A stretch of DNA of 43,046 nt from positions 1 to 43,046 of the forward strand of contig CALHLC010000049.1 in the NCBI GenBank assembly GCA_938034385.1, given 5' to 3'. A model generated the notes under the pieces. The model was not told where the DNA came from, made no database searches, and saw only the letters and a list, made by a program, of their open reading frames with translations. Positions 5,643-43,046 of the stretch are shown here, piece by piece; the stretch's first letter is position 1, and the number at the start of each line of letters is the position of its first letter. Both the position numbers and the translations under genes were made by a program. The stretch comes from an uncultured Bacteriovoracaceae bacterium (GTDB lineage Bacteria; Bdellovibrionota; Bacteriovoracia; Bacteriovoracales; Bacteriovoracaceae).

Positions 5643-5805
5643 TTAAGTCTATTTTAAGAGAGATCTATAAAAAGATGTGCATAGGGTAAAAAACTTGATT
5701 CAATTCAAGGGGAAAATAGGCAATAAAAAAAGTCGGATTTGCAGCAAATATTGGTCATTTTTTGCGAATTTCAGATAAAAGCAGAATGAGTGCTAAAATA
5801 AGATA

Positions 5806-24911: not shown

Positions 24912-24938
24912 TTAAGTTTCTGGAATTATTACCGAATA
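24912..24938 (+). promoter_or_regulatory. Sigma-28 (FliA)-like promoter of giant lipoprotein gene 1
   Basis: TTAA (24912-24915), 15 bases, then ACCGAATA (24931-24938). The flagellar sigma factor consensus is TAAA-N15-GCCGATAA. The spacing is exact and the -10 core CCGA is kept. The intervening GGAATTAT is shared with the element at 37295. The start point is predicted near 24945, about 60 bases before the ATG. Confidence 0.65.
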
Positions 24939-25006
24939 AATAACTGGAAAGAAATACAAGTTCTTAATGCTAAATTATTAGAGAACGAAAAAAGGTTGTA
25001 CGTATT

Positions 25007-28000
25007 ATGAAATTAGTTTTATTGCTTATGTTTATTCTTATGTCCTGTGTTGGAACCTTAGAAGATAATGGGAAGAAAGATGATTCTACAGTTAGTTCAC
25101 CTAATCAAGACTTTATATTTAATGGTGCAGAACAAGGGATTGCAGTTTCAAACACTCGATTAGCTGTAAGGTTTTTTCCTGCATTAGGCGGGTCTGGAAA
25201 TTTTAGATATCAACTTCTTGATGAAGGTGGAAATGTTCTTACTGGAGAAGATGGTAATAACTTAGTTAAAGATTCTAATGGGATGTTTCATCTCTCGCAT
25301 GCTGGTTTTGTGTCTGGGACATCAAATAGAGTTTTAGTAAGAGCTATCGATATAGATAGAGAAATCCCTGATGTTAATAATAATTACGTAACAGTTGCTT
25401 TGCCTGCTGGAGATTACCCAGAGTTTAATGGTGTTAAAAGATGTGAAGCTTTTCCTGGAGCCAATGGTGCAACACAATTAAATGTTTTTTGGGATCAAGG
25501 TAGAATTATTCCTGATGCATTTTTTGGGTTTAAACATAATAGTGTTGGTTCATATAAAGTGTATTATTGTGAAAAGTCATTAGGTACGAATTGTCTGTTT
25601 GAAAATACACCTAATAGGGGAGAGATAAATGTAACTAATCCTTTTGATACTCAATTAACAGTTGCAGGGTTGTTGCCAAATTCTAAGTATTATTTTAGAA
25701 CGACTGCATTATCAGTAGGAGACCTTGGTGCAGGGATTCCTGTTTATGAAGAAGAAAATATTGAGTTCGCGGAATGCCAGACAGAAGTTTCTTCTGGTCC
25801 AATTGTTTTCACAGGAATTACAGATGTAATTATTGCTGAGGGTGAAGATGGAATCAATGAAGCTTCAGTTGAGTGGGCCCAAGCTAGCGGTGGATATACT
25901 GGTTATATAGTATATTATCACCCAACAATTGATGCTAATGCTGTTTTTAATTATTTAGATCCTAATGTTCAAAGTGTTACTATTTTAGATCCACTACAAC
26001 AAAGTACTGATCTTGTAGGACTTGACTCATTTACTCATCATGCTTTTCTAGTTAAGGCCTGTCCTGACTTAATTGCAGATCCAAATTGTAACGCTGGAAA
26101 CGATGCTAATGAAAAATTTATTATTAGAGAGATGAAGCCACCTGTTGCAACGTTTGCAGGGATAGCTTTTAGCACTAACGACGTTAATAATCCATCAAAT
26201 GTGTTCCTGAACTTTGTTCCAGCGGACACCAGCTTTGGAGGGATCTTTGATGAGTATAGAGTAATTATTAGTGATGGTACGAATGATTATGATATTACAA
26301 ATTCTGATGCTACAAATAAATTAGGAGTTTTATATCCTTCTGCACCGTCAGACTATTTAGATTTATATCTTGACGGATTTGTAGAAACAAATATTTCGAA
26401 TACTTCCGCTAAACTTAATGGTTTGAAGCCAGGCGTGATTTATCAAGCAGATGTGCAAGCTTGGGTTAGTAGAACTTCTCCTTTACCTATTCAAGGAGGA
26501 AATATCACTATTGCTTATGGAACTACTTCAACTGTACCTGTTCCTGTTAGTAACGATGATACTACAGCACCTCTAGCTTCTGTTATGACCGTAAGTCCAA
26601 TAACAGGAACTTTGAAAGAAACAGAAATTTTAAGATTTGTTTTAACTTATAATGAAAATTTAGTAATTACTGGTACTCCAAGAATTGGTGTTGATATTGG
26701 TGGAGTAACAAAATATGCATCGATGGTTTCTAATACTGCAATGACTATGACTTTTGAATATGAAATTCAAGCTGGAGATAATGATTTAGATGGTATTGAA
26801 TATGATACAAGTACAGTTTCTCTTAATGGTGGGACAATCGCAGATTTATCAGGGAATAATGCAAATCTAAACTTTATCGGAGTTGAACCTCCAGTTGATT
26901 CAATTTTTGTTGATACTATTCCACCTAATCCACCAACAGGTATTGCTATTACTAATGATTGGATTAGTGCTGTTACAGTTGATCAAATGGCTTCCTGGAC
27001 AAACCCCTTAACAGACTTTGCTTTTGCTGAAGTTGGGATTGGATCAAATGGGAGTGGAACTGCAAATACAGTAGCTTTTACAAATGCAATTGCACCTTCA
27101 AATCATACTTTTTTTGCTTTGAATACTGGGCCACTAATCGAGTGTAATGTTGAATATCAAGTAATGGTACGAAGTGTAGATGCTGCAGGATTATTTTCAA
27201 CAGTAGCTGCAAGTGCTCAGACTTTTAAGTTTGACGAAACAGCACCAACCCAAACTACTGTAAATCTTGTAGGAACAACAAATGATATTTTTGTTGCAAA
27301 TGAAGTTAGTTGGGGATCTACAAGTGATAATTGTGGTCCGATTGATCATTATGAAATTGCTATTGGATATGATGATGATGGTGGAGATGGGTTTGGAAGT
27401 GATGATTTAAATAATGTTTTAGACTGGAGTGAAGTCCCTGGTGGCTCTGGAACTGTAAACTATAAAGCTCAAAGTGGTGTTGATGGAATGACTTTCACAC
27501 TAAATGCTAGTGAAGACTTTTATGTTTCTATCAGAGCGGTTGATGAAGCTGGAAATCCTGCTGCTCCAGCGAGTTCGGGATCTTTTCAAGTAGATATTGC
27601 AGGACCAAGCACTCCTTCAAGTCTTGCCATTACGTCTAATTGGATTAGTGGGGCATTACCTTTAATTAGTCCTACTGTTTCATGGACAAATCCAGGTGAC
27701 CCAGATTTTAATCACATCAAAATTGCACTTGGTTCAAGTATTGGTTTAGAAGATATAGAGAGTTTATTAAACATTGGAACTTTTACAAGTTATGCTTGGC
27801 CTAGTCTTAATGCAGGGATTGTAGATTGTAATAAAAATTATCCTAAAGTAATAGCTTACGATACCATCGGAAATCCATCTATTGCTGCAACTGATCCGAA
27901 TGTATGGGTTGCTTGGGATAATGTTGCTCCTACTTTTGCTGGAGGAGATGTTATAGACATTTCTGCTGGTGGTGAGGCTTTACCTGGAACGGCACCAATT

Positions 28001-29656
28001 GCAAATTGGAGTTCAACAACGAGAACAGATAATTGTAATACTATTTCTCATTATGAGATATCGGTTGGATTTGATGATGATGCTGATGGATTTGATGCTG
28101 GAGATGTTGATAACTTATTATCTTTTACTGAAGTCCCAGGTGGGAATACGATAACTCAATATCAGATTGTTGATGGTGTAGATGGATTTTCTCTAGGATT
28201 TGTAGGGAGTATTGATTACTACGTTTCACTACGTATTGTAGATGAAGCAGGAAATATTTCTACAGAGATTACATCATCCACACCATTTATGTTCATTGAT
28301 CCACCTGATCAAATTGCGACTGTTGAGCCAGCAGAGATTGGCGTGACACAAATTGAGCTTGGTTGGGTTGAACCAAATGATAATGGAACAGCTATCACTG
28401 ATTATATTATTGAATATAAAGAAACATCTAGTGGTACATGGTTAACTTATGCTGATGGTATTTCAAATGATCCACGTGTTACTGTAACAGGCTTAACAGC
28501 TCTAACTGAATATGACTTTAGAGTAACGGCTTTTAACGGATCTTATTCACCTGCTTCAGCTCCTGTAACGGAAAAAACATTTCCAAATCACCCATTTTTT
28601 AATGGTAGTGAAAATGCTGCTCTAAATCTTGGAGGATCAACAGATAGTAAAATTGTTGCACTTGAAAATGGTGTTGTTATAAATTTAAATGGAGTGAATG
28701 AAACAACTTTAAATAAAGGTGAAGTTCATCAACTCGCAACAGTTCAAAATGATGTTTTAACTTCTACTAAGAAATTCTTTGTAGCAGGAAGAAGAGGAGC
28801 TGGAGGAGCAACAAGTAAAGGAAATATTGTTTGGAATGTTGCTGCTTGGGCAGGAAGAGAATTTTTATTCAATGGATCTAGAGATCCAGCACATATTTAT
28901 ACAGTCTTTTCTTTTGAGGATACAAATTTAATTGAAGTATATAGAGATGGAACATTAGAAACTTCTATTACTATTAATGAAGATGATTTCCATACTTTTA
29001 CACTACCAAATGATGGTTCTTATCATGTTATAAGTACTGGTGTCATTACAGGATATGTATACTCTGAAGATGCTGCAGCCAATAGAGTAATTGATCCTTA
29101 TCCAGTAATGCCTTTATCTAAAGATATTATTGGATATCAATCAGGTAGTGGGCAATATAATGTTGTTGTAGATAATACTTCTTATGAAGAGTATCAATCA
29201 AACTCAGCTAGTCCTGCTACGGGAACATTTTCAAACTCTACATATACTTCATTAAGTGGTGGTGGGTCTTTTTATACTGGAGAAGTTTCGAGAGTAATCG
29301 GACAAAATGAAATGACTGCAAGAAGTACCGCTGATGGTAATGGTAACTGTTCTGCCTCACATATTCCTATGATTAAAATGAGAAAGAACTATGCGATAAA
29401 CATTGCTGCTGAATATATTGCATTTGGGTCTGATAAGCCAGCTGTCATTACTTATAGAGAGCCTGGTGGATCAAATCAAACACTGACACTGACAAAAACT
29501 GGTGGTCATGCCCTTGCTCCTTATAAAGGTAGGCTAGTAAATCTAGCTGAAGGAACCACTTTCGAGTCAAATGAAAGAATAGGTGCTTGGTATGAACCAT
29601 CAAATGATAATGGTGGATCCAATGATGATGAAACACTTATGTATGGATTTGATTAG
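25007..29656 (+). CDS. Giant multidomain lipoprotein, Fn3/Ig-like repeats, variable C-terminal module (paralogue of 37403 gene)
   Basis: 1549 residues. The lipobox is Leu-Met-Ser-Cys (Cys14), then an acidic linker. Residues ~135-500 hold Fn3-like units (for example LTVAGLLPNSKYYFRT). Residues ~515-635 form an Ig-like domain with DIGGVTKY and AGDNDLDGIEYD. Residues ~634-1093 repeat an A-B-A-B module pair in which B carries acidic, dockerin-like loops (DDDADGFDAGDVDN). A classical Fn3 domain spans ~1100-1190 (TDYIIEYKETSSGTW, TGLTALTEYDFRVTA). Residues ~1195-1549 are a beta-rich module I do not recognise. Residues 1-1093 are colinear with the gene at 37403. It is probably anchored in the outer membrane and could act as an adhesin. 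The next gene follows after 17 bases. Confidence 0.85.
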   Translation: MKLVLLLMFILMSCVGTLEDNGKKDDSTVSSPNQDFIFNGAEQGIAVSNTRLAVRFFPALGGSGNFRYQLLDEGGNVLTGEDGNNLVKDSNGMFHLSHAGFVSGTSNRVLVRAIDIDREIPDVNNNYVTVALPAGDYPEFNGVKRCEAFPGANGATQLNVFWDQGRIIPDAFFGFKHNSVGSYKVYYCEKSLGTNCLFENTPNRGEINVTNPFDTQLTVAGLLPNSKYYFRTTALSVGDLGAGIPVYEEENIEFAECQTEVSSGPIVFTGITDVIIAEGEDGINEASVEWAQASGGYTGYIVYYHPTIDANAVFNYLDPNVQSVTILDPLQQSTDLVGLDSFTHHAFLVKACPDLIADPNCNAGNDANEKFIIREMKPPVATFAGIAFSTNDVNNPSNVFLNFVPADTSFGGIFDEYRVIISDGTNDYDITNSDATNKLGVLYPSAPSDYLDLYLDGFVETNISNTSAKLNGLKPGVIYQADVQAWVSRTSPLPIQGGNITIAYGTTSTVPVPVSNDDTTAPLASVMTVSPITGTLKETEILRFVLTYNENLVITGTPRIGVDIGGVTKYASMVSNTAMTMTFEYEIQAGDNDLDGIEYDTSTVSLNGGTIADLSGNNANLNFIGVEPPVDSIFVDTIPPNPPTGIAITNDWISAVTVDQMASWTNPLTDFAFAEVGIGSNGSGTANTVAFTNAIAPSNHTFFALNTGPLIECNVEYQVMVRSVDAAGLFSTVAASAQTFKFDETAPTQTTVNLVGTTNDIFVANEVSWGSTSDNCGPIDHYEIAIGYDDDGGDGFGSDDLNNVLDWSEVPGGSGTVNYKAQSGVDGMTFTLNASEDFYVSIRAVDEAGNPAAPASSGSFQVDIAGPSTPSSLAITSNWISGALPLISPTVSWTNPGDPDFNHIKIALGSSIGLEDIESLLNIGTFTSYAWPSLNAGIVDCNKNYPKVIAYDTIGNPSIAATDPNVWVAWDNVAPTFAGGDVIDISAGGEALPGTAPIANWSSTTRTDNCNTISHYEISVGFDDDADGFDAGDVDNLLSFTEVPGGNTITQYQIVDGVDGFSLGFVGSIDYYVSLRIVDEAGNISTEITSSTPFMFIDPPDQIATVEPAEIGVTQIELGWVEPNDNGTAITDYIIEYKETSSGTWLTYADGISNDPRVTVTGLTALTEYDFRVTAFNGSYSPASAPVTEKTFPNHPFFNGSENAALNLGGSTDSKIVALENGVVINLNGVNETTLNKGEVHQLATVQNDVLTSTKKFFVAGRRGAGGATSKGNIVWNVAAWAGREFLFNGSRDPAHIYTVFSFEDTNLIEVYRDGTLETSITINEDDFHTFTLPNDGSYHVISTGVITGYVYSEDAAANRVIDPYPVMPLSKDIIGYQSGSGQYNVVVDNTSYEEYQSNSASPATGTFSNSTYTSLSGGGSFYTGEVSRVIGQNEMTARSTADGNGNCSASHIPMIKMRKNYAINIAAEYIAFGSDKPAVITYREPGGSNQTLTLTKTGGHALAPYKGRLVNLAEGTTFESNERIGAWYEPSNDNGGSNDDETLMYGFD

Positions 29657-29673
29657 AAGATAGAGGAAAATTT

Positions 29674-32600
29674 ATGAATGTTGTACGTTTGTTGTTGTAC
29701 TTTTTCTTTGTCTTGCTTGTCTCTTGTAATAATCAAGTAGGAGATGAAGAAGACAATGAAAATAATTTTATAGTGGATCCAAATGACTTGGGTAAAATTA
29801 CCTTTGTTAATGGGAATCTAGACTTTGGTCCTGTGCCTATTGGTACAGTCCATGAAAGATATATTCTAGTTAAGAATACAGGTAGATTAGCTATCAGTAA
29901 TTTTGAAACTTTCTACGATGATGAAGATTTTAGTCTGATTTTTAGATATTCGGGGCAAAGTGCGGAGTTTCCTGGAGCAAATGGAACTTGTACAGATCGG
30001 TTAGAGGTTAATCAGACATGTTTGTTATCAATTGCTTATTTGCCAACAGCATCTGTTGAGCATGATGTTGAATTTAAATTAAAATATAAAGATGGGCTAG
30101 GGTATTCTGAAGCAGCAACAAGAATTAAGTCTGTATCAGGAACAAATGGATCAATTGATGTTCAACCAGATATTGTAAATTTTGGAGACATTGATTTCAA
30201 TGATACGAAGTCTTTAAATGTAGAGGTGAAAAACACAGGAGAATTAGATCTTAGAATTTTAAGTATAATTCTAGAACAAGGGACTGATACTCTTTTTAAT
30301 ATTGACTTTAGTGATCCTTTAACAACTTGTTCTTCAACGGATCAAATTTTAAGCGAAAATGATACATGTAATTTAGTAGTGAAAGTAGATACAAATTTAG
30401 TTTCTGTGTATGATGATTATTTTCATTACTTTGAAATAAACTTTCTTGAGAATCCAACAACGACTGCTGTTTCAACCTTGAGAACAGATGTAAGAGCGGG
30501 TGTTTATTCTCTCGAAGGTGTTTTAGAAACTACTCCTTTAGTAAAGTTTCAAAACTTAATTAGTGGATCTACTAAAAATATAAGCTTTCAACTAAGAAAC
30601 ATTGGACACAACGCCGCTGTAGTAAAAAGTGTTAATTCACCAGCGATGAGTGATTTAAATTTTAATATTGATACTACTGACTGTACAAATTTATCTAATG
30701 AAATATTCGCTGCACCTGGAGAGGTGATTATCCCTCCAAATACAATTTGTATTTTAAATGCGACGATGAGTCCTATTGTTACTTTGGGAACGCAATCATT
30801 CAATTATCCTAATTTAAATTTAAGTTATGATAACTTAAAGACTGGTATAGTTAATACACTTGATATTGCCCTTGAAGGTAATATTATTAAATCAGGCTTT
30901 ATAGAAACTTTTGATGACTTAGATGCCCCAGCAAACAATTGGGTGGTACCTGCTAATACACTCGTTTCAAATGATTCGAGAATTTTTGAAGCGGCGACTT
31001 TTAAAATCAAGCACAGTGGTGATACTCCTGTAACAATTGGAACGTTTAGTTTGTCTGGTCAAGGTAGAGAATATTTATCTGTGACAGAAAGTTGTAATCA
31101 GGTTTTAAATGTTGGAGATGAGTGTACTTTTACAGTGACATTACTGCCGACTTTAACTGTTTACAATACACTTTTAGATACATTGATAAATGCGAATTTA
31201 AAAATTCAATATACAGATGAATCAATTGATCTTTCAAATAATTTTGTTCAAAGAGAAATCGACTTTGCTATAACTGGAAACTTAGATTTAAAGAGTGAAT
31301 TAGTATTTGAAGAATATGACGGAAGTGCCAGTCGATCAGGGGAATCAGTCGCAAATAGTGCATTGTTAGAAAAAATTTATATTAGAAATATTGGTGGAAT
31401 ATCTGAAAGTACTTTTTCTTTACAAATAAGTAATACAACTAATTTTAGTGCTGTGAATACTACTACTGTAGATTCAGATGGCATCAAAAACTGTTTAGAA
31501 TTAATTGCAACTTCAACTGCACTTAATCCTCAGGATCAATGTTTTTATGAAATGAGAGGGCTAGCAGCCGTTAATGGAAACGTAGCGACCAATTTAAATA
31601 TTGTATTTGGAGCAACTTCAGAAGTTTCTGATGTATATGCTCTTGATGTTGAGTTTGTAGATACTGCAAAAATTGCAACTATCGATTCTGAAGCTGGAGA
31701 TAAGGTCACATATATTACTTATGTTGCTGATTATCCAGGAGTTGGATCTTCTACCAGTACAGGGGATGCTTCCGTAACTCGTAAATATTCAACAGCTGCA
31801 ACTGTTGCGACTTCTCAAATTACTTTAAATACTATCTCTACAAACTTTGACTTAGCTGTCGTAGATGGAGGGTTAGGAGCTATAGGTACTCAAGAAACTA
31901 TTACTTTTAGCTTGGGTAATTCTGGAGGGTTTCCTCTTGGGATAAATAGTGTAAGTGTAAGTAGCGGTAGTGCTATATATAAAACTTCATCAGGATGTAA
32001 GACAGGAGCAAATGTTTCTTCAGGTTCGGAGTGTCAAGCCTCTTTTGATGTGAATTACTTAAGTTCGGCCCTTGAGAACTCAGAAATAGAGATTAAATAT
32101 ACACTTGGAGATAAAGTTAGTCCTGATGATGTAAACTTCATTGAATATACATCATATGTGAAAGTTTATTATAAAGGATATGATCCAGCTACGGTTGCAA
32201 ATCTTAATCCTTATGAAGGGGTTTCAAGTATAAGTGAGTTGGAGCTCGCTACTACGGTTGGACCGGATAATACTACTTCTAAAACTTTTAAGATCCAAAA
32301 TGATGGTACTCAAACTGCTACAGATATTCATTATGCATTATTACTAAATGGTAGTATTACAACTTTAACTGGTGGTTCTGGTGAGGAGCTTGTTTTTCCA
32401 GATTATGTAGCGGGAGCTTCTCCTATAGAAGAATATTTACTTAATAATACTGGAACTTGTACAAACGCAGCCGGTAATGACATGAACGCAACTGGTGATT
32501 GTGTTTTTGGGGTTGAATTTAATCCGAATTCTTTAGGGATTACAAATTATGAGGTTCAGCTTAGATATTTTAATGGTGCAACTTACACAACTGAAACGTT

Positions 32601-34380
32601 TGATCTGAAAACTACAGGTTTAAGTCCAGCTAAAATAGATGTTGGCGAAGTATTAGGGAATTTTCCTTTTTATGAGCATGACTTTGAGGGACAAGTAATA
32701 GATCAAACATATACACATGAAATATCACTTACTAATACAGGTGAAACTGATGCCACAAACTTTACTCATGATATGGCAGGAGGATCATTCTTATTTGAAG
32801 ATAATTCTAGTACATCTCCAACTTGTGGGGCAACTATTGCAGCTGGATCAACTTGTTACTTAAATCTAGTATTTAACCCTGTGTTTGCAAATATTGGAGT
32901 GAATGAAAATAAAAACTTTATAGCCACTTATGAAACAGGAGCTATTGCGGGAACGATGCTTACAGAGCAAATAGAGATTAATTCCAAAGGACTTACTGAA
33001 AATATTCGATCCAAGCATTATGGTTGGGATGAAGTTTACTCGATTGGATATAATGAAGCTTATGCTGATGAACTAAATGCTGCTGGAGGGAATTATCTTC
33101 CAGAGAGTTTAGGTTATATTAGCTTTACTTGGTTTTCTATGGATGATGCTGATGGAGATGCTGATAAATACTTTGTTTTCAAATCTAGTAAAGATGATAT
33201 TGATATTTATGCTGACTCACCACATGCAGTAATAAGTAGAGATGGTAGTGCGACTTATACTTATGAAGATAAGAACGTTACCAATACTCCTTTAAAAGTG
33301 TTTTATTATAAAGTTGTTCCTGAAAAAAACGGAGCGATTTCACAAATCTTATCTAGTGATTATCCTATCGCTGACTTGAGGATAATTATCCCAAATAAAT
33401 TTGAATCATTAGTTCATAAGTTTATGATGAATAGGGATATCTGTAAGTCGATGGACTTAGCAGATACAACTCTTGCAAGCTTTGACCCAGATTCAAATGG
33501 GTGTGAATACTTAGACGAAAATAATGCACCAGTAATGGTAAATCATGACTATGACTTATCAGTAGATATGTTTGAAACTAGTGGGCTTTATCAATCTACA
33601 AATGCAATAATTAACTCTTCTCAAGGAGTTCCTCTTGAGATGAATTTTGATAATTCTCTTCTTCATTGTGAATCAAAGAGTGTTACTTACTCATCTTCAG
33701 AATCATTCTTTTCAACGGCATTTGAAAAGTCATTACCTAATAGGTTAGAGCATTCAGTTTATGCTGCTCTTGAAAGTGGAAGTTTCTATGACTCTACACT
33801 ATGTGGATATGATGTGACAGATCCATTAACGGGTAATCAAGTAGATTGTCAGTCGAAGTTTTTAATTGAACAAGCTGCTGGTGGATTAAAAGAATGGACG
33901 ACTTCACAAGTTTCTGGTTTTGGAAAAGGAGAGACAACTACTTATACTTCTTTTACTGATAGCTTAATAAATAATATCGACTATACTAAGCATTTTCAGA
34001 CCGTATCTGGAATCAATACGAAAAATCACCTTGATCCAATTGCTTTAGATAATACATGTCTAAACTTAGCAACTGGAATTGCTGAAAGAGAAGGACCATT
34101 AGGATGTGTAGGAGAGCATTACGCGACTTTTACCGATGATCCAGGATCAGCTGGTCCTAAAGTAATTGATATATCAACAGAGGCTGCAAATACTAGATTC
34201 ATGCTATGGCATTTTAATTCAGACTTATCTGGTCAGAATATTACTGTTAATGCTCAAGCAGGTGGAGGAGCAAGCATAGGTGAAGCTCCACAGAATAATT
34301 CGTCGATTTATACTACTGAATTTGTTCCAAGTGTAACCCCTCGTGGTGGTGCAAGGTGTGTAACTAGAATCGGATATTAA
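29674..34380 (+). CDS. Giant lipoprotein with ~8 ASH/choice-of-anchor-D-like repeats
   Basis: 1568 residues. The lipobox is Leu-Val-Ser-Cys (Cys18), followed by an acidic Asn/Asp/Glu linker. Residues ~40-1100 contain about eight immunoglobulin-like repeats, each with a phrase like FGPVPIGTVHERYILVKNTG or FGDIDFNDTKSLNVEVKNTG. Most repeats have a late Cys-x(8-11)-Cys pair (CSSTDQILSENDTC), the layout of choice-of-anchor-D / ASPM-SPD2-Hydin domains. Residues ~1110-1568 are a distinct Cys-containing domain ending GGARCVTRIGY that I cannot name. GAGGAAAA precedes the ATG. It lies 17 bases after giant gene 1, so the two are probably one transcript from the sigma-28-like promoter, and a strong terminator closes the unit. 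Confidence 0.83.
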   Translation: MNVVRLLLYFFFVLLVSCNNQVGDEEDNENNFIVDPNDLGKITFVNGNLDFGPVPIGTVHERYILVKNTGRLAISNFETFYDDEDFSLIFRYSGQSAEFPGANGTCTDRLEVNQTCLLSIAYLPTASVEHDVEFKLKYKDGLGYSEAATRIKSVSGTNGSIDVQPDIVNFGDIDFNDTKSLNVEVKNTGELDLRILSIILEQGTDTLFNIDFSDPLTTCSSTDQILSENDTCNLVVKVDTNLVSVYDDYFHYFEINFLENPTTTAVSTLRTDVRAGVYSLEGVLETTPLVKFQNLISGSTKNISFQLRNIGHNAAVVKSVNSPAMSDLNFNIDTTDCTNLSNEIFAAPGEVIIPPNTICILNATMSPIVTLGTQSFNYPNLNLSYDNLKTGIVNTLDIALEGNIIKSGFIETFDDLDAPANNWVVPANTLVSNDSRIFEAATFKIKHSGDTPVTIGTFSLSGQGREYLSVTESCNQVLNVGDECTFTVTLLPTLTVYNTLLDTLINANLKIQYTDESIDLSNNFVQREIDFAITGNLDLKSELVFEEYDGSASRSGESVANSALLEKIYIRNIGGISESTFSLQISNTTNFSAVNTTTVDSDGIKNCLELIATSTALNPQDQCFYEMRGLAAVNGNVATNLNIVFGATSEVSDVYALDVEFVDTAKIATIDSEAGDKVTYITYVADYPGVGSSTSTGDASVTRKYSTAATVATSQITLNTISTNFDLAVVDGGLGAIGTQETITFSLGNSGGFPLGINSVSVSSGSAIYKTSSGCKTGANVSSGSECQASFDVNYLSSALENSEIEIKYTLGDKVSPDDVNFIEYTSYVKVYYKGYDPATVANLNPYEGVSSISELELATTVGPDNTTSKTFKIQNDGTQTATDIHYALLLNGSITTLTGGSGEELVFPDYVAGASPIEEYLLNNTGTCTNAAGNDMNATGDCVFGVEFNPNSLGITNYEVQLRYFNGATYTTETFDLKTTGLSPAKIDVGEVLGNFPFYEHDFEGQVIDQTYTHEISLTNTGETDATNFTHDMAGGSFLFEDNSSTSPTCGATIAAGSTCYLNLVFNPVFANIGVNENKNFIATYETGAIAGTMLTEQIEINSKGLTENIRSKHYGWDEVYSIGYNEAYADELNAAGGNYLPESLGYISFTWFSMDDADGDADKYFVFKSSKDDIDIYADSPHAVISRDGSATYTYEDKNVTNTPLKVFYYKVVPEKNGAISQILSSDYPIADLRIIIPNKFESLVHKFMMNRDICKSMDLADTTLASFDPDSNGCEYLDENNAPVMVNHDYDLSVDMFETSGLYQSTNAIINSSQGVPLEMNFDNSLLHCESKSVTYSSSESFFSTAFEKSLPNRLEHSVYAALESGSFYDSTLCGYDVTDPLTGNQVDCQSKFLIEQAAGGLKEWTTSQVSGFGKGETTTYTSFTDSLINNIDYTKHFQTVSGINTKNHLDPIALDNTCLNLATGIAEREGPLGCVGEHYATFTDDPGSAGPKVIDISTEAANTRFMLWHFNSDLSGQNITVNAQAGGGASIGEAPQNNSSIYTTEFVPSVTPRGGARCVTRIGY

Positions 34381-34404
34381 TACTTAGAAATATATTTTTC
34401 TTTT

Positions 34405-34436
34405 AAAAGCCCTCAAGTATTTGAGGGCTTTTTTGT
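34405..34436 (+). terminator. Rho-independent terminator after the giant lipoprotein pair
   Basis: AAGCCCTCAA pairs perfectly with TTGAGGGCTT around a GTAT loop and is followed by a T run. Confidence 0.95.
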
Positions 34437-34483
34437 TTAAAAAATTTCAACTACTAAGATCAAGTATCATTTTTTAATTATTG

Positions 34484-34509
34484 TTTATTTAGGAAGTTAT
34501 GACCCAATA
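34484..34509 (+). promoter_or_regulatory. Weak sigma-28-like candidate for motAB
   Basis: ACCCAATA (34502-34509) differs by one base from the -10 box ACCGAATA of giant gene 1, and GGAAGTTAT precedes it as GGAATTAT does there. The -35 (TTTA or GTTT) is poor. Reported because motAB genes are classic FliA targets. Confidence 0.3.
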
Positions 34510-34530
34510 CAAAAAATGCATGGCAAAAAT

Positions 34531-34565
34531 TAGATTAACAATTATACTATATAAAAGTTAATCTA
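34531..34565 (+). promoter_or_regulatory. Hairpin abutting the motA ribosome-binding site
   Basis: TAGATTAAC (34531-34539) is the exact reverse complement of GTTAATCTA (34557-34565). The right arm touches the AAGGAG Shine-Dalgarno at 34565-34570, so folding could reduce motA translation. The pairing is AT-rich with a 17-base loop, so its stability is modest. Confidence 0.45.
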
Positions 34566-34576
34566 AGGAGTAGTGA

Positions 34577-35371
34577 GTGAATATATTTGCGGTATTGGTG
34601 TTCTTGTCATCAATCTTATATGTATACGTTAGTTTTTTATGGACCTCGAGTAATCAGCCTTTAATTTATTTTGATGCAACAAGTTTGTTTATTGTTCTTG
34701 TTGGTACGATTATCGCGATTGCTTTAAGTGTTGATATAAGAAGATTATTCAAACTATTTATGGTTTTTATTAGAAGGTTTTTCTTTGGAAAAAACTATGA
34801 GTTTAGAACCCTTATTATGGAATTAATGACTTTAACAGAATCTTATAGAAAAGGTGAAAGTCTAAGTGGTTTAATACCTGGAATAACTGATGATTTCCTG
34901 CAAGAGTCTGTTCAAACTATAGATGATGGAATTGTTGAAGGAGAAGATCTTGTAGATTTACTTGAGAGTAGAAATGAAAATCAATTATTAAATAATGAAA
35001 AAGAGGCTAATTTATTCCAGACAATGTCAAAATTTCCTCCAGCGTTTGGAATGATCGGGACTACTATGGGTATGGTTGCTCTACTAGCAAACCTTGCCAC
35101 TTCAGAAGATGCAATCGGGACGATTGGACCAATGATGGCCGTAGCCCTAATTACAACTTTATATGGAGCGATCTTAGCAAACCTTATTTTACTTCCTATA
35201 GCTGAAAATCTTAAAGGTGACTCTGAAGAGATATATGAAAAAAATGTCATTATTATTGAAGGTGTGAAGTTATTATTAAAGAAAACAAACCCAGTTGTTG
35301 TTGCTGAAAAAATGAACTCATTTCTTCCAAAGTCTAAAAGACTTGATTGGAAAGAAGTTATTAACGCTTAA
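34577..35371 (+). CDS. motA: Flagellar motor stator protein MotA
   Basis: 264 residues, GTG start with AAGGAG 6 bases upstream. Four membrane segments are visible: about 3-22, 30-50, then a long cytoplasmic loop, then two C-terminal spans. The conserved MotA/TolQ/ExbB stretch FPPAFGMIGTTMGMVALLANL is followed by IGPMMAVALITTLYGAILANL. The cytoplasmic loop normally contacts FliG. MotA and MotB form the ion channel that drives flagellar rotation in the inner membrane. motB follows after 15 bases, confirming the pair over a TolQ/ExbB reading. Confidence 0.92.
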   Translation: MNIFAVLVFLSSILYVYVSFLWTSSNQPLIYFDATSLFIVLVGTIIAIALSVDIRRLFKLFMVFIRRFFFGKNYEFRTLIMELMTLTESYRKGESLSGLIPGITDDFLQESVQTIDDGIVEGEDLVDLLESRNENQLLNNEKEANLFQTMSKFPPAFGMIGTTMGMVALLANLATSEDAIGTIGPMMAVALITTLYGAILANLILLPIAENLKGDSEEIYEKNVIIIEGVKLLLKKTNPVVVAEKMNSFLPKSKRLDWKEVINA

Positions 35372-35386
35372 TATAAGAAGAAATAA

Positions 35387-36109
35387 ATGAGAAAAAATAA
35401 AGTTAGAAGAAAAAGAATGGAAAGTGACGAAGGTACATGGCTTGTAAGTTATGCAGACATGATGACATTAATTTGTTGTTTCTTTATTCTGATGATGGCC
35501 CTAGCAAATTATGAGCCTGTAGGGTTTACAAAGAAAGTACAAGAACTTTCAAAGCACTTTAATGTCGATAAGTATAAATCATCAGATGTTAAACTAACGA
35601 CTCTTACAGATGAAGTAGCTAGTCATCCAAAGCTTCAAAAGATGACGAAGATTTCAAAAAAAGATGAAAGGTTAATAGTTAGCTTTAGTGGGACTATTTT
35701 ATTTAAAAATGATTTATATGAATTAAATGATGAAATGCTTTCACAACTAGATGCTTTAATTGATTTAATTAAAACACGAGATGATTCGTATAAGATTTTA
35801 ATTGAAGGGCATACTTCAAATTTACCCATTTCTAAAAAGAGTCTGATTTCAAAATGGCATCTAAGTTCTTTGAGAGCTTCGGCAGTTGCTCAAAGATTTG
35901 CATTCTTTGGCTTTAACAATAAGAACATTGTACCAATTGGAAGAGGTTCCACTGAGCCGATTCTAGCAAATCAGGATAAATTTGGTGAAAATATTAAAGA
36001 AAACATTGTTTTAAACGATAGAGTTGAAATTAAGATTCTTGAATCTAAAGAAGTTGAAACAACAGAGAAAAAGAGAAAATTAGGTCTTGGGGTGTATTTT
36101 AAAGATTAA
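35387..36109 (+). CDS. motB: Flagellar motor stator protein MotB
   Basis: 240 residues. The single membrane segment begins GTWLVSYADMMTLICCFFILMMAL and contains Asp24, the ion-binding residue essential in MotB. After a plug/linker region comes the OmpA-like peptidoglycan-binding domain (ILIEGHTSNLPI, LSSLRASAVAQRFAFFGF, RGSTEPILAN, LNDRVEIKI). It is shorter than E. coli MotB (308). The Tyr-Ala-Asp-Met form does not by itself reveal proton or sodium coupling. The PilZ gene starts 2 bases after the stop codon. Confidence 0.94.
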   Translation: MRKNKVRRKRMESDEGTWLVSYADMMTLICCFFILMMALANYEPVGFTKKVQELSKHFNVDKYKSSDVKLTTLTDEVASHPKLQKMTKISKKDERLIVSFSGTILFKNDLYELNDEMLSQLDALIDLIKTRDDSYKILIEGHTSNLPISKKSLISKWHLSSLRASAVAQRFAFFGFNNKNIVPIGRGSTEPILANQDKFGENIKENIVLNDRVEIKILESKEVETTEKKRKLGLGVYFKD

Positions 36110-36111
36110 AA

Positions 36112-37176
36112 ATGATTATAGGCATAATAGATAAAGATAAAGACAGAGGACCTCTCGAGGACTTTTTTAAGCAGCATTCTAAAGACTTTCGATTTTATGA
36201 TAATTTACAAGATGGTGTGCAAAAGGCACTTGATGGAAATGTTCAGTATATTGTTATTGATACGGACAATGAACCGACTGTTTCTATAGATAGGTTGAAT
36301 TTTTTCTCTAAAGAGAATGAAACTCCATGTATTGTTTTGACTTGCAATGCTGCTTTATCGGCAAAGATTAGAATTTCAGCAAAAAATAATTCGTTTTTAA
36401 CTACGGCATTATATGGGGATACGTATCCAGATCTTGATCAAATAATTGATACAAAGAGAAAATTTAAAAATAAGAATAAACATTTTGTAAAAAAGAAAAA
36501 AGTTAGTGAGAAATCCTATTATAATCTGTTCAGTTCTTCTTTAAACATTGGGATTATTTTATTTCTAGTAGGGCTTCTTGGATATTATGCATTCTTACTT
36601 TTTACAGGAAAAATATCAATAAGTGAGGAAAATAAATATTTTGCTTATATTTGGTTTGCTTTGGGCTCTTTAGGGATTCTCAACTCAGCTCTAATATTAA
36701 AAGATTCTAAGAGAGAGCGAACATTGAGCTTTGTTTTTTCGATTTGTTCTTTTGTGTTGATTTTTTTTAAGACAGATTTCTTTACTCCTATGGCCATTAT
36801 TTCAGTTTTGGTTCTTATTGATTACTTTTTACTAAAACCAATTCTCCAGCATATAAGAAATATGATGCATGTAAGAAAGGAACCTAGACATCCTGTTGAT
36901 GGATATATTTATGTAATCTCTTCTCAAAGTTCTGAAAATTTTAATGCTAGATTAGTAGATTTATCTAATTCTGGAGCACTTATAGAATCTCAAGAGATGT
37001 TTATTAAAGGTGAGGAATTAAAAATTAATAATGAGGCGTTTAGTATTTTTGCAGATGTAAAAAGGTCTTATAAATCTGGGGATAGTTATAAAACAGCTTT
37101 AGAATTTAATTTAGTAACAAAAGCTAACTCAAAAGCAATCACAGAGTATATTAAATCAAATTCGATCGAAGTTTAA
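36112..37176 (+). CDS. REC-like / four-TM / PilZ protein, predicted membrane c-di-GMP receptor for the motor
   Basis: 354 residues. The start is similar to a receiver domain (MIIGIIDKDKD, YIVIDTDNEP, CIVLTCN, ~1-120) but lacks the usual phosphorylation context. Four membrane segments lie near 145-165, 177-196, 204-221 and 225-243. A C-terminal PilZ domain follows with both c-di-GMP signatures: Arg255-x-x-x-Arg259 (RKEPRH) and Asp283-Leu-Ser-Asn-Ser-Gly288. It is translationally coupled to motB (2-base gap). Known PilZ brakes such as YcgR are soluble and bind MotA or FliG/FliM. A membrane-embedded version within the stator operon suggests direct stator control, which is inference. Confidence 0.82.
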   Translation: MIIGIIDKDKDRGPLEDFFKQHSKDFRFYDNLQDGVQKALDGNVQYIVIDTDNEPTVSIDRLNFFSKENETPCIVLTCNAALSAKIRISAKNNSFLTTALYGDTYPDLDQIIDTKRKFKNKNKHFVKKKKVSEKSYYNLFSSSLNIGIILFLVGLLGYYAFLLFTGKISISEENKYFAYIWFALGSLGILNSALILKDSKRERTLSFVFSICSFVLIFFKTDFFTPMAIISVLVLIDYFLLKPILQHIRNMMHVRKEPRHPVDGYIYVISSQSSENFNARLVDLSNSGALIESQEMFIKGEELKINNEAFSIFADVKRSYKSGDSYKTALEFNLVTKANSKAITEYIKSNSIEV

Positions 37177-37294
37177 TTTGTTAAAAGCTTCTTACCTATA
37201 ACTGAAATCATAAATGTTACAAAACTCTAATTTGCCAAGAAAAAGTGCCAGAATTCATAAATTTTAGAAATTAAAAAACTACCATTAGCATGGC

Positions 37295-37321
37295 TTAAGT
37301 ATACGGAATTATAGCCGAATA
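37295..37321 (+). promoter_or_regulatory. Sigma-28 (FliA)-like promoter of giant lipoprotein gene 3
   Basis: TTAA (37295-37298), 15 bases, then GCCGAATA (37314-37321). The -10 box shares GCCGA with the FliA consensus GCCGATAA. It lies about 80 bases before the GTG start. The spacer core GGAATTAT matches the copy at 24912. Confidence 0.7.
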
Positions 37322-37402
37322 GCATTTTAGACAGTTTATTATTTGTAATAAGTTTAAAATATATGGGCTAAAGAAAATTTACTTCTTAAAGGTGGTACGT
37401 AA

Positions 37403-40400
37403 GTGGTTAAATCTAAAATTTTGATTTTGATGATGTCATTATTTCTAGTTTCTTGTGTAGGGACAATAGAGGACAATGGAGAAGTAGATAAGTCTACTGT
37501 TAATGATCCTGTCCAAGACTTTGCTTTCTCTGGAATTGAAAGCGGGTTATGGGTTTCAAACACAAAGGCTTCAGTTCGGTTTAGACCGGCAGTTGGAGGA
37601 AGTGGTAATTTTAGATACCAACTCCAAGATGAAGGTGGGAATGTTTTAACGGCCGACAATGGTGGGAATATGGTTAAAGACAGTAATGGTCTTTATCACT
37701 TAACTACATCAGGGTTTCCTTCTGGAACAACACATAGACTATTAGTTCGAGCGATTGATATTGATAGGGATGTTGCAGATACAAATTCAATTTATTATGA
37801 AATAAATCTTCCATCTGATTTATATCCAGACTTTGATGGTATTGATAGATGTGAGCCTTTCCCGGGTGGAAATGGTCAAAATCAATTAAATGTTTTCTGG
37901 AATAAAGGTGGAATTTATCCTAATGGACTATTTGGAAATCTTCCTCATAGTGTTGGTTCTTATAGAATTTATTATTGTGAAAAATCTGAAGGTACTGATT
38001 GTTTAGAAACAAGCTCTCCACAAAGAGGGGTAATGACAATTCTAAATGCAACTCAAGAGCAAGCAACAGTTGCAGGTTTAAGTGCTAATACTGATTATTA
38101 CTTCAGAGTAACTGCTGTTACTGAAGGAGATCCTGCTGATCCAACTTCTCAATTAGAAGAAAACAATATTGAGTTTTCAGAATGTAAAACTCAGATCGCT
38201 TCAGGTCCAATTGTATTTAGTGGTATTGAAGATGTTATTCTTGCTAATGGAGAAAATGGGATAAATGAAGCAACTGCTCATTGGTCACCTGCTACAGGTG
38301 GTTATGTTGGTTATAAATTATTTTATCACCCAGTGATTGATGCAAACTCTACATTTAATTATTTAGATCCAAATATTCAATCTATAACAATTCTAGATCC
38401 TCTTGCAATTAGTCAAGCGATGATTGGTTTAGACTCATTTACTTATCATGCATTCTTGATGAAGGCTTGTCCTGATCTCATTGGTGATCCAACATGTGGT
38501 GCTGGTAATGATGCAAATGGAACATTTATTATCAAACAAACAAAACCACCAATTGCAGTTTTTGCTGGGATTGATAATGCGACGAATGACGTAACTAATC
38601 CATCAAATGTTTATTTAAATTTTGTTCCTGCTGATACATCTACTGGTGGGATCTTTGATGAGTATAGAGTAATTATTAGTGATGGAACGAATGATTATGA
38701 TATTACGGATTCAAATGCTACAAATAAATTAGGTGATATCTATGGAGCCGCTGGTCCAGACTATGCTGATTTATATTTAGATGGATTTGTTCCTTCAAAT
38801 ATTACTTCAACTTTTGCCAAATTAAATGGATTAAAGCCTGGAGTAATTTATCAAGCTGACGTTCAAGCTTGGGTTGATAGAACTTCTCCTTTACCTATCT
38901 CAGGTGGGAATATTTCTATAGAATATGGTTCTCAAACAACTGTTCCTGTTGCAGTTAGTAATGATGATACTACTCCACCTCTTGCTGCTGGAATGACTGT
39001 TACTCCACCAAGTGGAATTTTAGTTGAAAATGATGTTTTAACACTTGTTTTAACTTATAACGAGTCACTAGTTATTACTGGTCAACCAAGAATAGGAATT
39101 GATGTTGGTGGCGTTACGAAATATGCTGACATGGTTTCAAATACATTAAATTCTTTAACTTTTGAATATACCGTAGTTGCAGGAGATAATGACCTTGATG
39201 GGATTGCATTTGATACTAATGCAGTTTCTCTAAATGGTGGATCTATTGCCGATCTTTCAGGAAATAATGCTAACTTAAACTTTGTAGGTGTTGCTCCTGT
39301 TGTTTCAGCTATCTTTGTAGACACTACTCCTCCAAACCCTCCTACAAATATTACTTTTAGTAAACCATGGTTAAGTAGTGTGATTATCGATCAAACTGCA
39401 ACTTGGACAAATCCAACTTCAGATTTCTCTTTTGCTGAGATTGGTGTTGGATCTGCTGGTAGTGGAGTTGCTAATGCGGTAGCTTTTACAACTGCAAGCT
39501 CTACTAATACTCATGCATTTCCAAATATTAATGCAAGCTTAACAGAATGTTTTCAAGAATACCAAGTAGTCGTAAGAAGTGTTGATGCAGCTGGATTAAA
39601 ATCAAGCATTGCTTCAAGTATAGCAACATTTAAATATGATGCTACTGCACCTCAAACTCCAACTACTTCTTTAATTGGAAACACTTCAGATATCTTTGTT
39701 GCTAATGAAGCAAGTTGGACTGCTGTTACAGATTCATGTTCTCTTGATCATTATGAAATTGCAATTGGTAGAGATGATGATGCTGATGGTTTTGGAAGTG
39801 ATGATATAAACAATACTCTTGATTGGACTGAAATTCCAGGTGGAACGGCCACTACTCAGTATAAAGCTCAAAGTGGTGTTGATGGGATGACTTTTTCTCT
39901 TAACGCAGTTGATGATTTTTATGTGACTATTAGAGCGGTTGATGAAGCTGGAAACTATTCAGCTCCAGGTTCTAGTGCTCCATGGAAAGTTGATATTGCT
40001 GGACCTAGTACACCTACCAACCTTGCTATTGCAACTCAATGGGTAAGTGGGGCGTTGCCAGTTGCAAGTCCTAGCGTTTCTTGGACGAATCCAACTGAGC
40101 CAGATTTTGATCATATTGAAATTGCTCTAGGGACAAATATTGGCGACGAAGATTTAGAAGCAATGTTAAATATTGGAACATTTACAAGTCATACTTGGAC
40201 GGGATTAAACTCAATTGTTGAATGTAATCATAATTATCCAAAAATTTTAGCTTATGATGATATTGGAAATCCATCTATTGCAGCAACTGATCCAAATGTT
40301 TGGTTTGCTCATGATAATACTGCTCCTACTATGACAGGTGGAGATATAGATATCTCTGCTGGTGGTGAGGACTTAGCTACTAACAAAGCTCCTCTTGCGA

Positions 40401-42667
40401 CATGGTCATCTGTTACAAGAACAGATAATTGTAATGCCATTGATCATTATGAATTAGCTATTGGTTATGATGATGATGCTGATGGTTTTGATGTAGGTGA
40501 TGCAGAAAATCTTATGAGCTTTAAAACAGTTCCTGGTGGAGATATTACTTCTCAGTATCAAATGGTAAATGGTGTTGATGGGTTTAATTTTACTCTTGTT
40601 GCAGGTTTTGATTATTATATAAGTGCAAAAGTTTATGATAAAGCTGGAAACGTATCTACTATTTTTAGTGCATCTACTCCTTTTAGTTTTGCTGTTGATA
40701 ATACTCCTCCTGTACCTACTATAACGACAACTTCTCCAAATCCAGTGAATACTCCAACTTTTCCTATCACCATAACATTTTCAGAGGATGTTAGTGGGTT
40801 TACTGTTTCAGATTTATTTATAAATAATGGTACGGCAAGTAACTTTGCTGGTGGACCAACTGTATTTACTGCAGATATAAGTGCATCAAACTTTGGTACA
40901 GTTTCAGTTGATATTCCTCTTGGAGCAGCTCAAGACGCTGCCGGGAATCCAAGTACTGCGGCTACTCAGTTTACAATTATGTATGCTTCTACTGAACCAA
41001 TGAAAACTGTATGGCAAACATCTGGTGCAAATGAAACGATAACTTTGCCATTTGTTAATGGCGGAACTTATGATCTTCTTATTGATTGGGGAGATGGATC
41101 TCCTGATAGCGTAGTAACATCTGGAAATGATCCAAATCGAATCCATACTTATGCCACTGCAGGTTCATATACAGTTACAATGTATGGAATAGCTACTCAT
41201 TGGAGATTTAATAATGGTGGAGACAAGTTAAAAATATTTTCAGTTACAGATCTTGGAGATATGGGTTGGGTAAACCTCTATGGAGCTTTCTATGGATGTA
41301 GTAATCTAACAAGTGTTAGTGGAGGAAAAACTGGCAATGTTACGAACATGGCCAATATGTTTAGAGCGGCAGCGATTATTAATCCAGATACAAGTAGTTA
41401 TGACACTTCCAAAGTAACGACCATGCATGCAATGTTTTATCAATCTCCATTTGCAAATCCAGATACTTCTGGATGGGATACTTCGAAGGTAGTTAGTATG
41501 GCATATATGTTTGGATACGCAAAAGCTGCAAATCCTGATACTTCTGGATGGGATACTTCAAGTGTTACAGATATGTATTACTTATTTTATGATGCTGAGA
41601 CGGCTAACCCTGATGTTTCAGGATGGGATGTTTCTAAAGTTACAGAATTTACAGGTATCTTTGGAAATGCCGATGTTGCTAATCCTAATGTAACAAATTG
41701 GAATGTATCAAATGGTGTGAATTTTACGAGTATGTTTTATAGAGCACCTGTTGCTCAACCAAATACAAGCTTATGGAATACTGCAAAAGCTGTAAGTATG
41801 TCGAATATGTTCAATGGAGCAACTGTTGCTAATCCAGATACTTCTGGATGGGATACATCGAAAGTTACCACAATGTTAAGTATGTTTGCTTATGCTCCAG
41901 CTGCTAATCCAGATACTAGTGGTTGGGATACGTCGAAAGTAAATAATATGCAGAATATGTTCCTTGGAGCAACAAGTGCTAATCCAGATACTTCAGGTTG
42001 GGATACTTCTTTAGTGACTACGATGAATCAAATGTTTTATAATGCCTCTAGTGCTAGTCCGGATACTAGTGGTTGGAATACTGCCAAAGTTACAAACATG
42101 AATAGAATGTTTAGAAATGCAACAAGTGCTAACCCAAATACAAGTGGTTGGGATACAGCTAAAGTTACAACTATGCATGAGATGTTTTATAATGCTGTAA
42201 GTGTAACCCCTGATACTTCTGGTTGGGATACATCTCTTGTTACAAAAATGAGACATATGTTTTATAAATGTGGTTCAGCAAATCCGGATACGTCTGGCTG
42301 GAATACGGCAAATGTTAATGATATGTATGGAATGTTTAATAGAGCAGGTAGTGCAAACCCAGATACATCTGGTTGGGATACTAGTAAAGTAACTAATATG
42401 TATACGATGTTTTATAAGGCAGGTAGTGCAAATCCGGATACCTCTGGTTGGGATGTAGGTCTTGTTACAAACTTTAATTATATCTTCTATCAAGCGTATT
42501 CGCTATCTAACCTGAACTATAGTAACTTTTTAATAATGGTTGATAATACGACTACAATGACTAATTTGATTACTAGATCGCATTCTAAATATCAGCCTGG
42601 AGCAGTTGCTGCAAGAAATGCCTTGATTGCAGATGGTTGGAATATTGTGGATTTAGGTCCTGAATAG
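37403..42667 (+). CDS. Giant lipoprotein with Fn3/Ig-like stalk and 15 BspA/DUF285 repeats
   Basis: 1754 residues, GTG start with AAAGGTGG 7 bases upstream. The lipobox is Leu-Val-Ser-Cys (Cys18). Residues ~1-1093 are colinear with the 25007 protein: the same Fn3-like units, Ig-like domain and A-B-A-B modules with acidic DDDADGFD loops. An Ig-like domain follows (~1098-1194: TTTSPNPVN, DVSGFTVSDLFINNG), then the PKD-like cap typical of BspA surface proteins (LLIDWGDGSPDSV, HTYATAGSYTVTMYG). Residues 1327-1701 are 15 repeats of 25 aa, consensus NPDTSGWDTSKVTNMxxMF. BspA relatives bind fibronectin or other bacteria. Likely a surface adhesin on a long stalk. It sits downstream of motAB-PilZ with its own promoter. 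Confidence 0.88.
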   Translation: MVKSKILILMMSLFLVSCVGTIEDNGEVDKSTVNDPVQDFAFSGIESGLWVSNTKASVRFRPAVGGSGNFRYQLQDEGGNVLTADNGGNMVKDSNGLYHLTTSGFPSGTTHRLLVRAIDIDRDVADTNSIYYEINLPSDLYPDFDGIDRCEPFPGGNGQNQLNVFWNKGGIYPNGLFGNLPHSVGSYRIYYCEKSEGTDCLETSSPQRGVMTILNATQEQATVAGLSANTDYYFRVTAVTEGDPADPTSQLEENNIEFSECKTQIASGPIVFSGIEDVILANGENGINEATAHWSPATGGYVGYKLFYHPVIDANSTFNYLDPNIQSITILDPLAISQAMIGLDSFTYHAFLMKACPDLIGDPTCGAGNDANGTFIIKQTKPPIAVFAGIDNATNDVTNPSNVYLNFVPADTSTGGIFDEYRVIISDGTNDYDITDSNATNKLGDIYGAAGPDYADLYLDGFVPSNITSTFAKLNGLKPGVIYQADVQAWVDRTSPLPISGGNISIEYGSQTTVPVAVSNDDTTPPLAAGMTVTPPSGILVENDVLTLVLTYNESLVITGQPRIGIDVGGVTKYADMVSNTLNSLTFEYTVVAGDNDLDGIAFDTNAVSLNGGSIADLSGNNANLNFVGVAPVVSAIFVDTTPPNPPTNITFSKPWLSSVIIDQTATWTNPTSDFSFAEIGVGSAGSGVANAVAFTTASSTNTHAFPNINASLTECFQEYQVVVRSVDAAGLKSSIASSIATFKYDATAPQTPTTSLIGNTSDIFVANEASWTAVTDSCSLDHYEIAIGRDDDADGFGSDDINNTLDWTEIPGGTATTQYKAQSGVDGMTFSLNAVDDFYVTIRAVDEAGNYSAPGSSAPWKVDIAGPSTPTNLAIATQWVSGALPVASPSVSWTNPTEPDFDHIEIALGTNIGDEDLEAMLNIGTFTSHTWTGLNSIVECNHNYPKILAYDDIGNPSIAATDPNVWFAHDNTAPTMTGGDIDISAGGEDLATNKAPLATWSSVTRTDNCNAIDHYELAIGYDDDADGFDVGDAENLMSFKTVPGGDITSQYQMVNGVDGFNFTLVAGFDYYISAKVYDKAGNVSTIFSASTPFSFAVDNTPPVPTITTTSPNPVNTPTFPITITFSEDVSGFTVSDLFINNGTASNFAGGPTVFTADISASNFGTVSVDIPLGAAQDAAGNPSTAATQFTIMYASTEPMKTVWQTSGANETITLPFVNGGTYDLLIDWGDGSPDSVVTSGNDPNRIHTYATAGSYTVTMYGIATHWRFNNGGDKLKIFSVTDLGDMGWVNLYGAFYGCSNLTSVSGGKTGNVTNMANMFRAAAIINPDTSSYDTSKVTTMHAMFYQSPFANPDTSGWDTSKVVSMAYMFGYAKAANPDTSGWDTSSVTDMYYLFYDAETANPDVSGWDVSKVTEFTGIFGNADVANPNVTNWNVSNGVNFTSMFYRAPVAQPNTSLWNTAKAVSMSNMFNGATVANPDTSGWDTSKVTTMLSMFAYAPAANPDTSGWDTSKVNNMQNMFLGATSANPDTSGWDTSLVTTMNQMFYNASSASPDTSGWNTAKVTNMNRMFRNATSANPNTSGWDTAKVTTMHEMFYNAVSVTPDTSGWDTSLVTKMRHMFYKCGSANPDTSGWNTANVNDMYGMFNRAGSANPDTSGWDTSKVTNMYTMFYKAGSANPDTSGWDVGLVTNFNYIFYQAYSLSNLNYSNFLIMVDNTTTMTNLITRSHSKYQPGAVAARNALIADGWNIVDLGPE
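41381..42505 (+). repeat. 15 tandem 75-bp coding repeats (BspA/DUF285)
   Basis: Units start every 75 bases from 41381 to 42431 without a single phase change. Each encodes Asn-Pro-Asp-Thr-Ser-Gly-Trp-Asp-Thr-Ser-Lys-Val plus a Met-x-x-Met-Phe segment. Units 4-6 are the most diverged (NPNVTNWNVSNG, QPNTSLWNTAKA). DNA identity between units is lower than protein identity, so the array is not a recent expansion. Confidence 0.93.
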
Positions 42668-42691
42668 AATAAAGCATTTCATTTAAATACC

Positions 42692-42726
42692 AAAAGGCGA
42701 GAAAATCAGTTTTCTTGCCTTTTTTG
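42692..42726 (+). terminator. Rho-independent terminator after giant lipoprotein gene 3
   Basis: AAAAGGCGAGAAAA pairs with TTTTCTTGCCTTTT (one G-T pair) around a TCAG loop and runs into T-rich sequence. Confidence 0.93.
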
Positions 42727-42770
42727 TTTTAGGAAGATTTTTCCTGTTTTCTAAAAAATATTCTTCTCAA

Positions 42771-42797
42771 TTAAGCTAAATGATTTTTTCACGATAA
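42771..42797 (+). promoter_or_regulatory. Sigma-28 (FliA)-like promoter of the right-edge gene
   Basis: TTAA (42771-42774), 15 bases, then CACGATAA (42790-42797), six of eight bases matching GCCGATAA. It lies just after the terminator and 28 bases before the ATG at 42825. Confidence 0.6.
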
Positions 42798-42824
42798 GTA
42801 ATCAGACCATAACGGAGATTATTT

Positions 42825-43046
42825 ATGAAGTTAATATTACTTAGTTTGTTTTTTGTATCAACGTATTCATTTTCCAAAAGCCTGGTAGTGACCAGTGTTC
42901 AAGAAAAAGTAGATGTATTTGTTAAAAACTCAGATACGAATAAGTTAGTAAAGATTGGGGTTACTCCTTTAAAGATAAACTATTCAGAGATTGTAGATAA
43001 TTACTCTCGAAGTGATAACTTCATGCTTGTTATGCAGAAAGAAAAG
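42825..43046 (+). CDS. Exported protein with PEGA-like start (3' truncated by window edge)
   Basis: The first 74 codons of a gene cut by the window end. ATG at 42825 with CGGAG 7 bases upstream. The signal peptide is MKLILLSLFFVSTYSFS without a lipobox Cys, so probably periplasmic. The following segment VTSVQEKVDVFVKN and IGVTPLKI resembles the start of a PEGA domain (surface-layer/extracytoplasmic beta fold). Only the N-terminus is visible, so function cannot be given. Its FliA-like promoter groups it with the giant lipoproteins. Confidence 0.72.
   Translation, partial: MKLILLSLFFVSTYSFSKSLVVTSVQEKVDVFVKNSDTNKLVKIGVTPLKINYSEIVDNYSRSDNFMLVMQKEK

Follow-up and report, generated by a model that had tools for sequence, protein, structure and literature searches.

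Putative FliA-type promoters before giant lipoprotein genes in a Bacteriovoracaceae lineage that appears to have lost the flagellum

Three sites in the window (the whole 43,046-nt stretch of DNA analysed, contig CALHLC010000049.1 of an uncultured Bacteriovoracaceae bacterium) are very probably FliA-type promoters, to judge from their sequence, and they stand before two giant lipoprotein genes and a third gene for an exported protein. It is highly probable, from motif statistics and gene content, that these sites are read by the FliA (sigma-28) RNA polymerase, and that a FliA regulon has here outlived the flagellum and now serves mostly exported proteins and lipoproteins under the gating of FlgM. 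The genome, designated G000, belongs to the Bacteriovoracaceae, measures 2.67 Mb and is 99.3% complete; G001, G002 and G003 are its three genus mates, G003 being the sister genome.

As shown in Table 1, the three TTAAG-N15 sites lie where the earlier note had placed them, each ahead of a gene whose start codon is at 25007, 37403 or 42825. The spacing of all three is that of E. coli sigma-28 (TAAA-N15-GCCGATAA). Sites 1 and 2 fit the strict form TWAAG-N15-CCGAWWA fully, while site 3 has ACGATAA instead of CCGAWWA, without the CCGA core. lipoA and lipoB are probably carried on one transcript. A GTACGTA leader right before the start codons is common to lipoA, lipoC and their relatives in G003 (window 24990-25006 and 37390-37402; L156). 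The C-terminal third of lipoC holds many repeats of the form NPDTSGWDTSKVTxMxxMF, of a surface-protein type, and lipoA is without them.

Table 1. Position of the promoters, genes and terminators of the window, and of the FliG-like proteins of relatives
Feature	Coordinates	Strand	Remarks
FliA-type promoter 1, TTAAG-N15-CCGAATA	24912..24938	+	ends 68 nt before lipoA start; score 13.2 of 13.2
lipoA, 1549-aa lipoprotein	25007..29656	+	lipobox MSC; fibronectin type III domain
lipoB, 1568-aa lipoprotein	29674..34380	+	ASH/Hydin-type Ig repeats; starts 17 nt after lipoA
Strong intrinsic terminator between lipoA-lipoB and motAB	34405..34432	+	12-pair stem, T-rich tail
motA, second non-flagellar MotA clade	34577..35371	+	upstream FliA-type site absent
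motB	35387..36109	+	MotB plug and OmpA peptidoglycan-binding domain
PilZ-domain membrane protein	36112..37176	+	2 nt after motB
FliA-type promoter 2, TTAAG-N15-CCGAATA	37295..37321	+	ends 81 nt before lipoC start; score 13.2 of 13.2
lipoC, 1754-aa lipoprotein, lipoA paralog	37403..42667	+	57% over N-terminal 260 aa
Intrinsic terminator 3' of lipoC	42692..42723	+	
FliA-type promoter 3, TTAAG-N15-ACGATAA, weaker	42771..42797	+	ends 27 nt before third gene
Third exported gene, 5' part	42825..43046	+	cut by contig end
633-734 aa protein, FliG-like C-terminal domain	L224:9078-10976 (G003); L218:8177-10378; L215:10732-12756; L214:10900-13020; L219:11132-13096		

Motif counts were taken from genome-wide pattern searches and from a 598-kb sample of stretches, in which counts per spacing were too small to be useful. 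A pattern with one mismatch was not enriched over the reversed pattern. In the genome-wide search, the strict form has 19 exact matches in G000, while the same two half-motifs at 25 other spacings give 77 matches, or 3.1 per spacing (Poisson 8.5e-10 for 19 at N15), and about three of the 19 are expected by chance. With the window's two strict sites left out, 17 matches stand against 3.1 (Poisson 3e-8), and the strict form is in this respect informative. The genus mates are similar, with 15 matches at N15 versus 3.0 at other spacings in G001, 9 versus 2.6 in G002 and 19 versus 4.0 in G003; in six flagellate relatives the N15 enrichment ratios are 1.5 to 3.8, below those of G000, G001 and G003. 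Among 530 sampled G000 upstream regions, one reaches the score of sites 1 and 2, and six reach that of site 3.

Conservation was seen around the sites themselves. In G003, the ortholog of lipoA (85% identity across the N-terminal 261 aa) is preceded by TTAAGTTTCTGAAATTATTACCGAAAA at an equal distance from the start, and the island conserved between G000 and G003 is limited to the promoter and ribosome-binding region, with diverged flanks. A separate giant lipoprotein gene in G003:C10 has TAAAG-N15-CCGATTA upstream; among the giant-lipoprotein homologs, an independent FliA site stands out clearly upstream there and in G017, is weaker in G013 and is absent in G015. As for site 3, contig C51 ends in a second genomic copy of the third gene, before which TTAAG-N15-ACGATAA is retained though the spacer differs, and the counterpart at the same place in G003 reads TCAAG-N15-TCGATAA; site 3 is weaker taken alone but has comparative support. 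The two copies of the third gene (window 42790-43046 and the C51 end, L230 in G000) are near-identical, both at contig ends, and part ways immediately before the -10 element, which suggests a recent duplication together with an assembly break.

These observations bear on the alternative that the sites match by chance, in intergenic DNA rich in A and T, with sites 1 and 2 resembling each other merely through the duplication of the paralogous lipoA and lipoC. When three mismatches are allowed, the E. coli consensus is no commoner in the window than in shuffles (61 matches versus 48.5 ± 7.4, an uninformative result, and site 1 is not among the matches). However, the enrichment of the strict motif at N15, which persists with the window excluded, and the confinement of the G000-G003 conservation to the promoter and ribosome-binding region both speak against coincidence, and we regard this explanation as improbable.

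The genes behind the strict sites point to what a FliA regulon would serve here. Sixteen of the 19 sites in G000 sit 7-154 nt upstream of a start codon, and the remaining three fall inside reading frames; a lipobox is present in 11 of the 16 downstream genes, and to the eye another four seem to encode exported or membrane proteins. When one fixed rule was applied to targets outside the window, the C31 target being left out, 8 of 13 were lipoproteins versus 9% of sampled genes (Fisher 8e-6). The link to lipoproteins rests on this strict genome-wide list because in the 598-kb sample, for which a looser matrix and crudely called gene starts were used, lipoprotein enrichment was not visible (0 of 6 among upstream regions scoring at least 12). 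It was claimed earlier that the giant lipoproteins come under shared FliA-type control, and membership of their sites in a genome-wide set enriched for lipoproteins favours that claim.

Meanwhile, the gene content of G000 sets FliA apart from its usual setting. Flagellin was not found in G000, and neither FlhA nor FliG_C was found in G000 or in G001-G003; FlhA is present in most family members, and FliG in the tested flagellate relatives. The genomes analysed are draft assemblies, in which the loss of FlhA and FliG agrees across all four and the flagellar loci of G000 look cleanly excised; remnants of flagellar loci are present in G000. FliA of G000 reaches 276 bits where the cut-off is 190, its regions 2 and 4.2 hardly differ from those of flagellate relatives, and FlgM is above its cut-off in all four genus genomes. 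In flagellate G005 the neighbourhood of FlgM reads flgI-flgJ-flgM-flgN-flgK-flgL-csrA-fliW, versus flgM-csrA-fliW in G000 (FliW identity was confirmed, the other names being assigned by eye), and the keeping of CsrA and FliW with FlgM was seen in two genus members. On this gene content, the lineage has lost the flagellum and retained FliA and FlgM throughout the genus, and because flagellin, FlhA and FliG are absent while FliA and FlgM are kept, the regulon is read as one for export and lipoproteins rather than for co-expression with a flagellum.

Several further observations concern the same genes. FlgM, CsrA and FliW stand side by side (L183, G000:C6:15000-27000, 5635-6871), though flagellin, the usual partner of FliW, is absent. 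FlhF is kept beside FliA (L188, G000:C22, 6544-7668), with a nucleotide-binding loop that looks degenerate (CSPRSCGQTS), and may no longer be a GTPase. FlhA is also absent, with FliA above its cut-off, in other genomes of the phylum (G031, G039, G047, G048, G049 and G054), and the flagellum may have been lost there repeatedly with FliA retained. In the relatives G005, G013 and G029, extra FliG_C-domain proteins, mostly short (about 136-191 aa), occur besides FliG itself.

The motif might be read, in place of FliA, by some other sigma factor or regulator whose core is similar. Further sigma-70 family members do occur in these genomes, and sites 1 and 2 have extra spacer bases in common (GGAATTAT), possibly an activator site; against this, FliA is the only sigma-70 family member listed for G000 above the FliA/WhiG cut-off, its DNA-reading regions are unchanged, and the consensus matches sigma-28 of both Bdellovibrio and E. 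coli. Reading by a factor other than FliA therefore seems unlikely.

The earlier note had proposed a motile-phase regulon tying the giant lipoproteins to the flagellar motor, with a weaker FliA candidate before motAB. It is true that motAB lies between the sites and that its best scores are against flagellar stator models. However, flagellin, FlhA and FliG were not found, and the best site upstream of motAB-PilZ in G000 scores 9.3 of 13.2 (p~0.62), a level that does not support a FliA-type site. motAB was accordingly rejected as a FliA target in G000, having no site above chance and being separated from lipoA-lipoB by the 12-pair terminator. The MotA of the window shares 40-47% identity with a second MotA of G003:C10, G013, G015 and G017, and only about 30% with the usual MotA of relatives; in alignment, it has insertions in common with the second-MotA group, and its ALEK glutamate is replaced while the arginine is kept. 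It thus appears to belong to a second clade and not to be the usual flagellar stator, and the motile-phase reading retains hardly any credence. The tie between motAB and FliA fails in G000 and may hold elsewhere, as the third gene heads a FliG-like operon and FliA-type sites occur near motA or motAB in two genera, namely upstream of a PEGA-FliG-like-MotAB operon in G017 and of motA in G013.

Giant lipoproteins and second-clade MotA occur together across relatives: of the 12 genomes tested for both, five have both and seven have neither, with no exceptions. In all four of G003, G013, G015 and G017, second-clade MotAB is found near a PEGA/TPR protein of the third-gene family and a FliG-like protein of 633-734 aa, with giant lipoproteins in the region; linkage of this kind is seen in several genera. 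In G003 the ortholog of the third gene encodes a TPR protein of 200 aa, among whose homologs a PEGA domain is found, and the gene for the FliG-like membrane protein is next downstream. In the 633-734 aa protein, a signal peptide and a single membrane segment are accompanied by a C-terminal domain that is helical; a profile of this domain against PDB finds FliG in 9 of 11 hits (best E 5e-8), and hhalign against local FliG gives E 3e-5 (72%, about 170 columns). Pfam gives weak MgtE_N hits and not FliG; the MgtE_N fold is related to that of FliG. A single-sequence AlphaFold model of the C-terminal part of the 633-aa protein had a mean pLDDT of 44.5 and was set aside, and homology of its N-terminal half to FliF, suspected by eye, was not supported (hhalign E 0.32).

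On these data it is a fair hypothesis that the giant surface lipoproteins are tied to a non-flagellar rotor and stator. The fuller proposal is put forward tentatively and is doubtful in its entirety: the cluster might be a non-flagellar rotary machine, with MotAB as stator, the FliG-like protein as membrane-bound rotor, the PEGA/TPR protein and the giant lipoproteins, placed under FliA control and moving lipoproteins along the surface or powering gliding or prey attachment. That it powers gliding is speculation. A description of such a MotAB/FliG-like/PEGA/giant-lipoprotein cluster was not found in paper searches of an open-access library.

For the window, the preferred reading, that of a FliA regulon outliving the flagellum, would work as follows. 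FliA polymerase would read promoters 1-3, its DNA-reading parts being nearly unchanged after the loss of the flagellum, and the regulon would be small, of about 20 strict sites per genome, taking in the lipoA-lipoB operon, lipoC and the operon starting with the third gene. Most likely FliA would be held in check by its anti-sigma factor FlgM until a signal in the life cycle brings about the removal of FlgM; because the flagellar export channel is absent and FlgM cannot be pumped out, removal is proposed to take place by, for example, degradation. Once FlgM is removed, the surface proteins and lipoproteins of one cell phase would be turned on. With FliA and FlgM outliving the flagellum in a predator lineage, the motility role of FliA becomes separable from its probable role in surface proteins, and the question arises of how FlgM is relieved where no export channel exists. 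In addition, the linked stator and FliG-like protein would supply a concrete surface-motor candidate for the Bdellovibrionota, whose gliding motor has been described as unidentified (PMC13104615).

The closest comparison is with Bdellovibrio bacteriovorus, in which 92 of 140 attack-phase promoters carry the mapped consensus TTAAG-N16-CCGATA (Karunker et al. 2013, PMC3627812). A link to these promoters had been suggested earlier and agrees with the present sites, which resemble that consensus with a spacing one base shorter. The regulon is likewise widened in Bdellovibrio to cell-surface and uncharacterised genes (PMC3627812), whereas the flagellum is present and co-regulated there; here the flagellum has gone, the spacer is usually shorter by one base, and the targets are mostly lipoproteins and exported proteins. 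In Legionella oakridgensis, according to one account, the flagellar regulon is missing while FliA and FlgM are kept and working, FlgM apparently being degraded and not exported (Tlapak et al. 2017, via PMC5655016). The likeness lies in the loss of the flagellar regulon, the keeping of FliA and FlgM and the driving of non-flagellar genes by FliA (PMC5655016); the differences are that the lineage is unrelated, that no mention is made there of a giant lipoprotein or stator cluster, and that CsrA and FliW lie beside FlgM here.

The flagellar MotAB-FliG motor shares with the present cluster MotA, a MotB with a peptidoglycan-binding domain and, in the linked genes of relatives, a FliG-like domain, but here the flagellum is missing, the FliG-like domain forms one protein with an exported segment that spans the membrane, and MotA is without the ALEK glutamate. 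Myxococcus AglRQS-Glt and Bacteroidota GldLM are similar in coupling an ion-driven stator-type motor to surface proteins without a flagellum, gliding by the present cluster being hypothetical. To our knowledge, a FliG-like partner is not known for either system. Myxococcus AglR also differs from the MotA of the window in falling within the generic (ExbB/TolQ) clade (PMC12505986).
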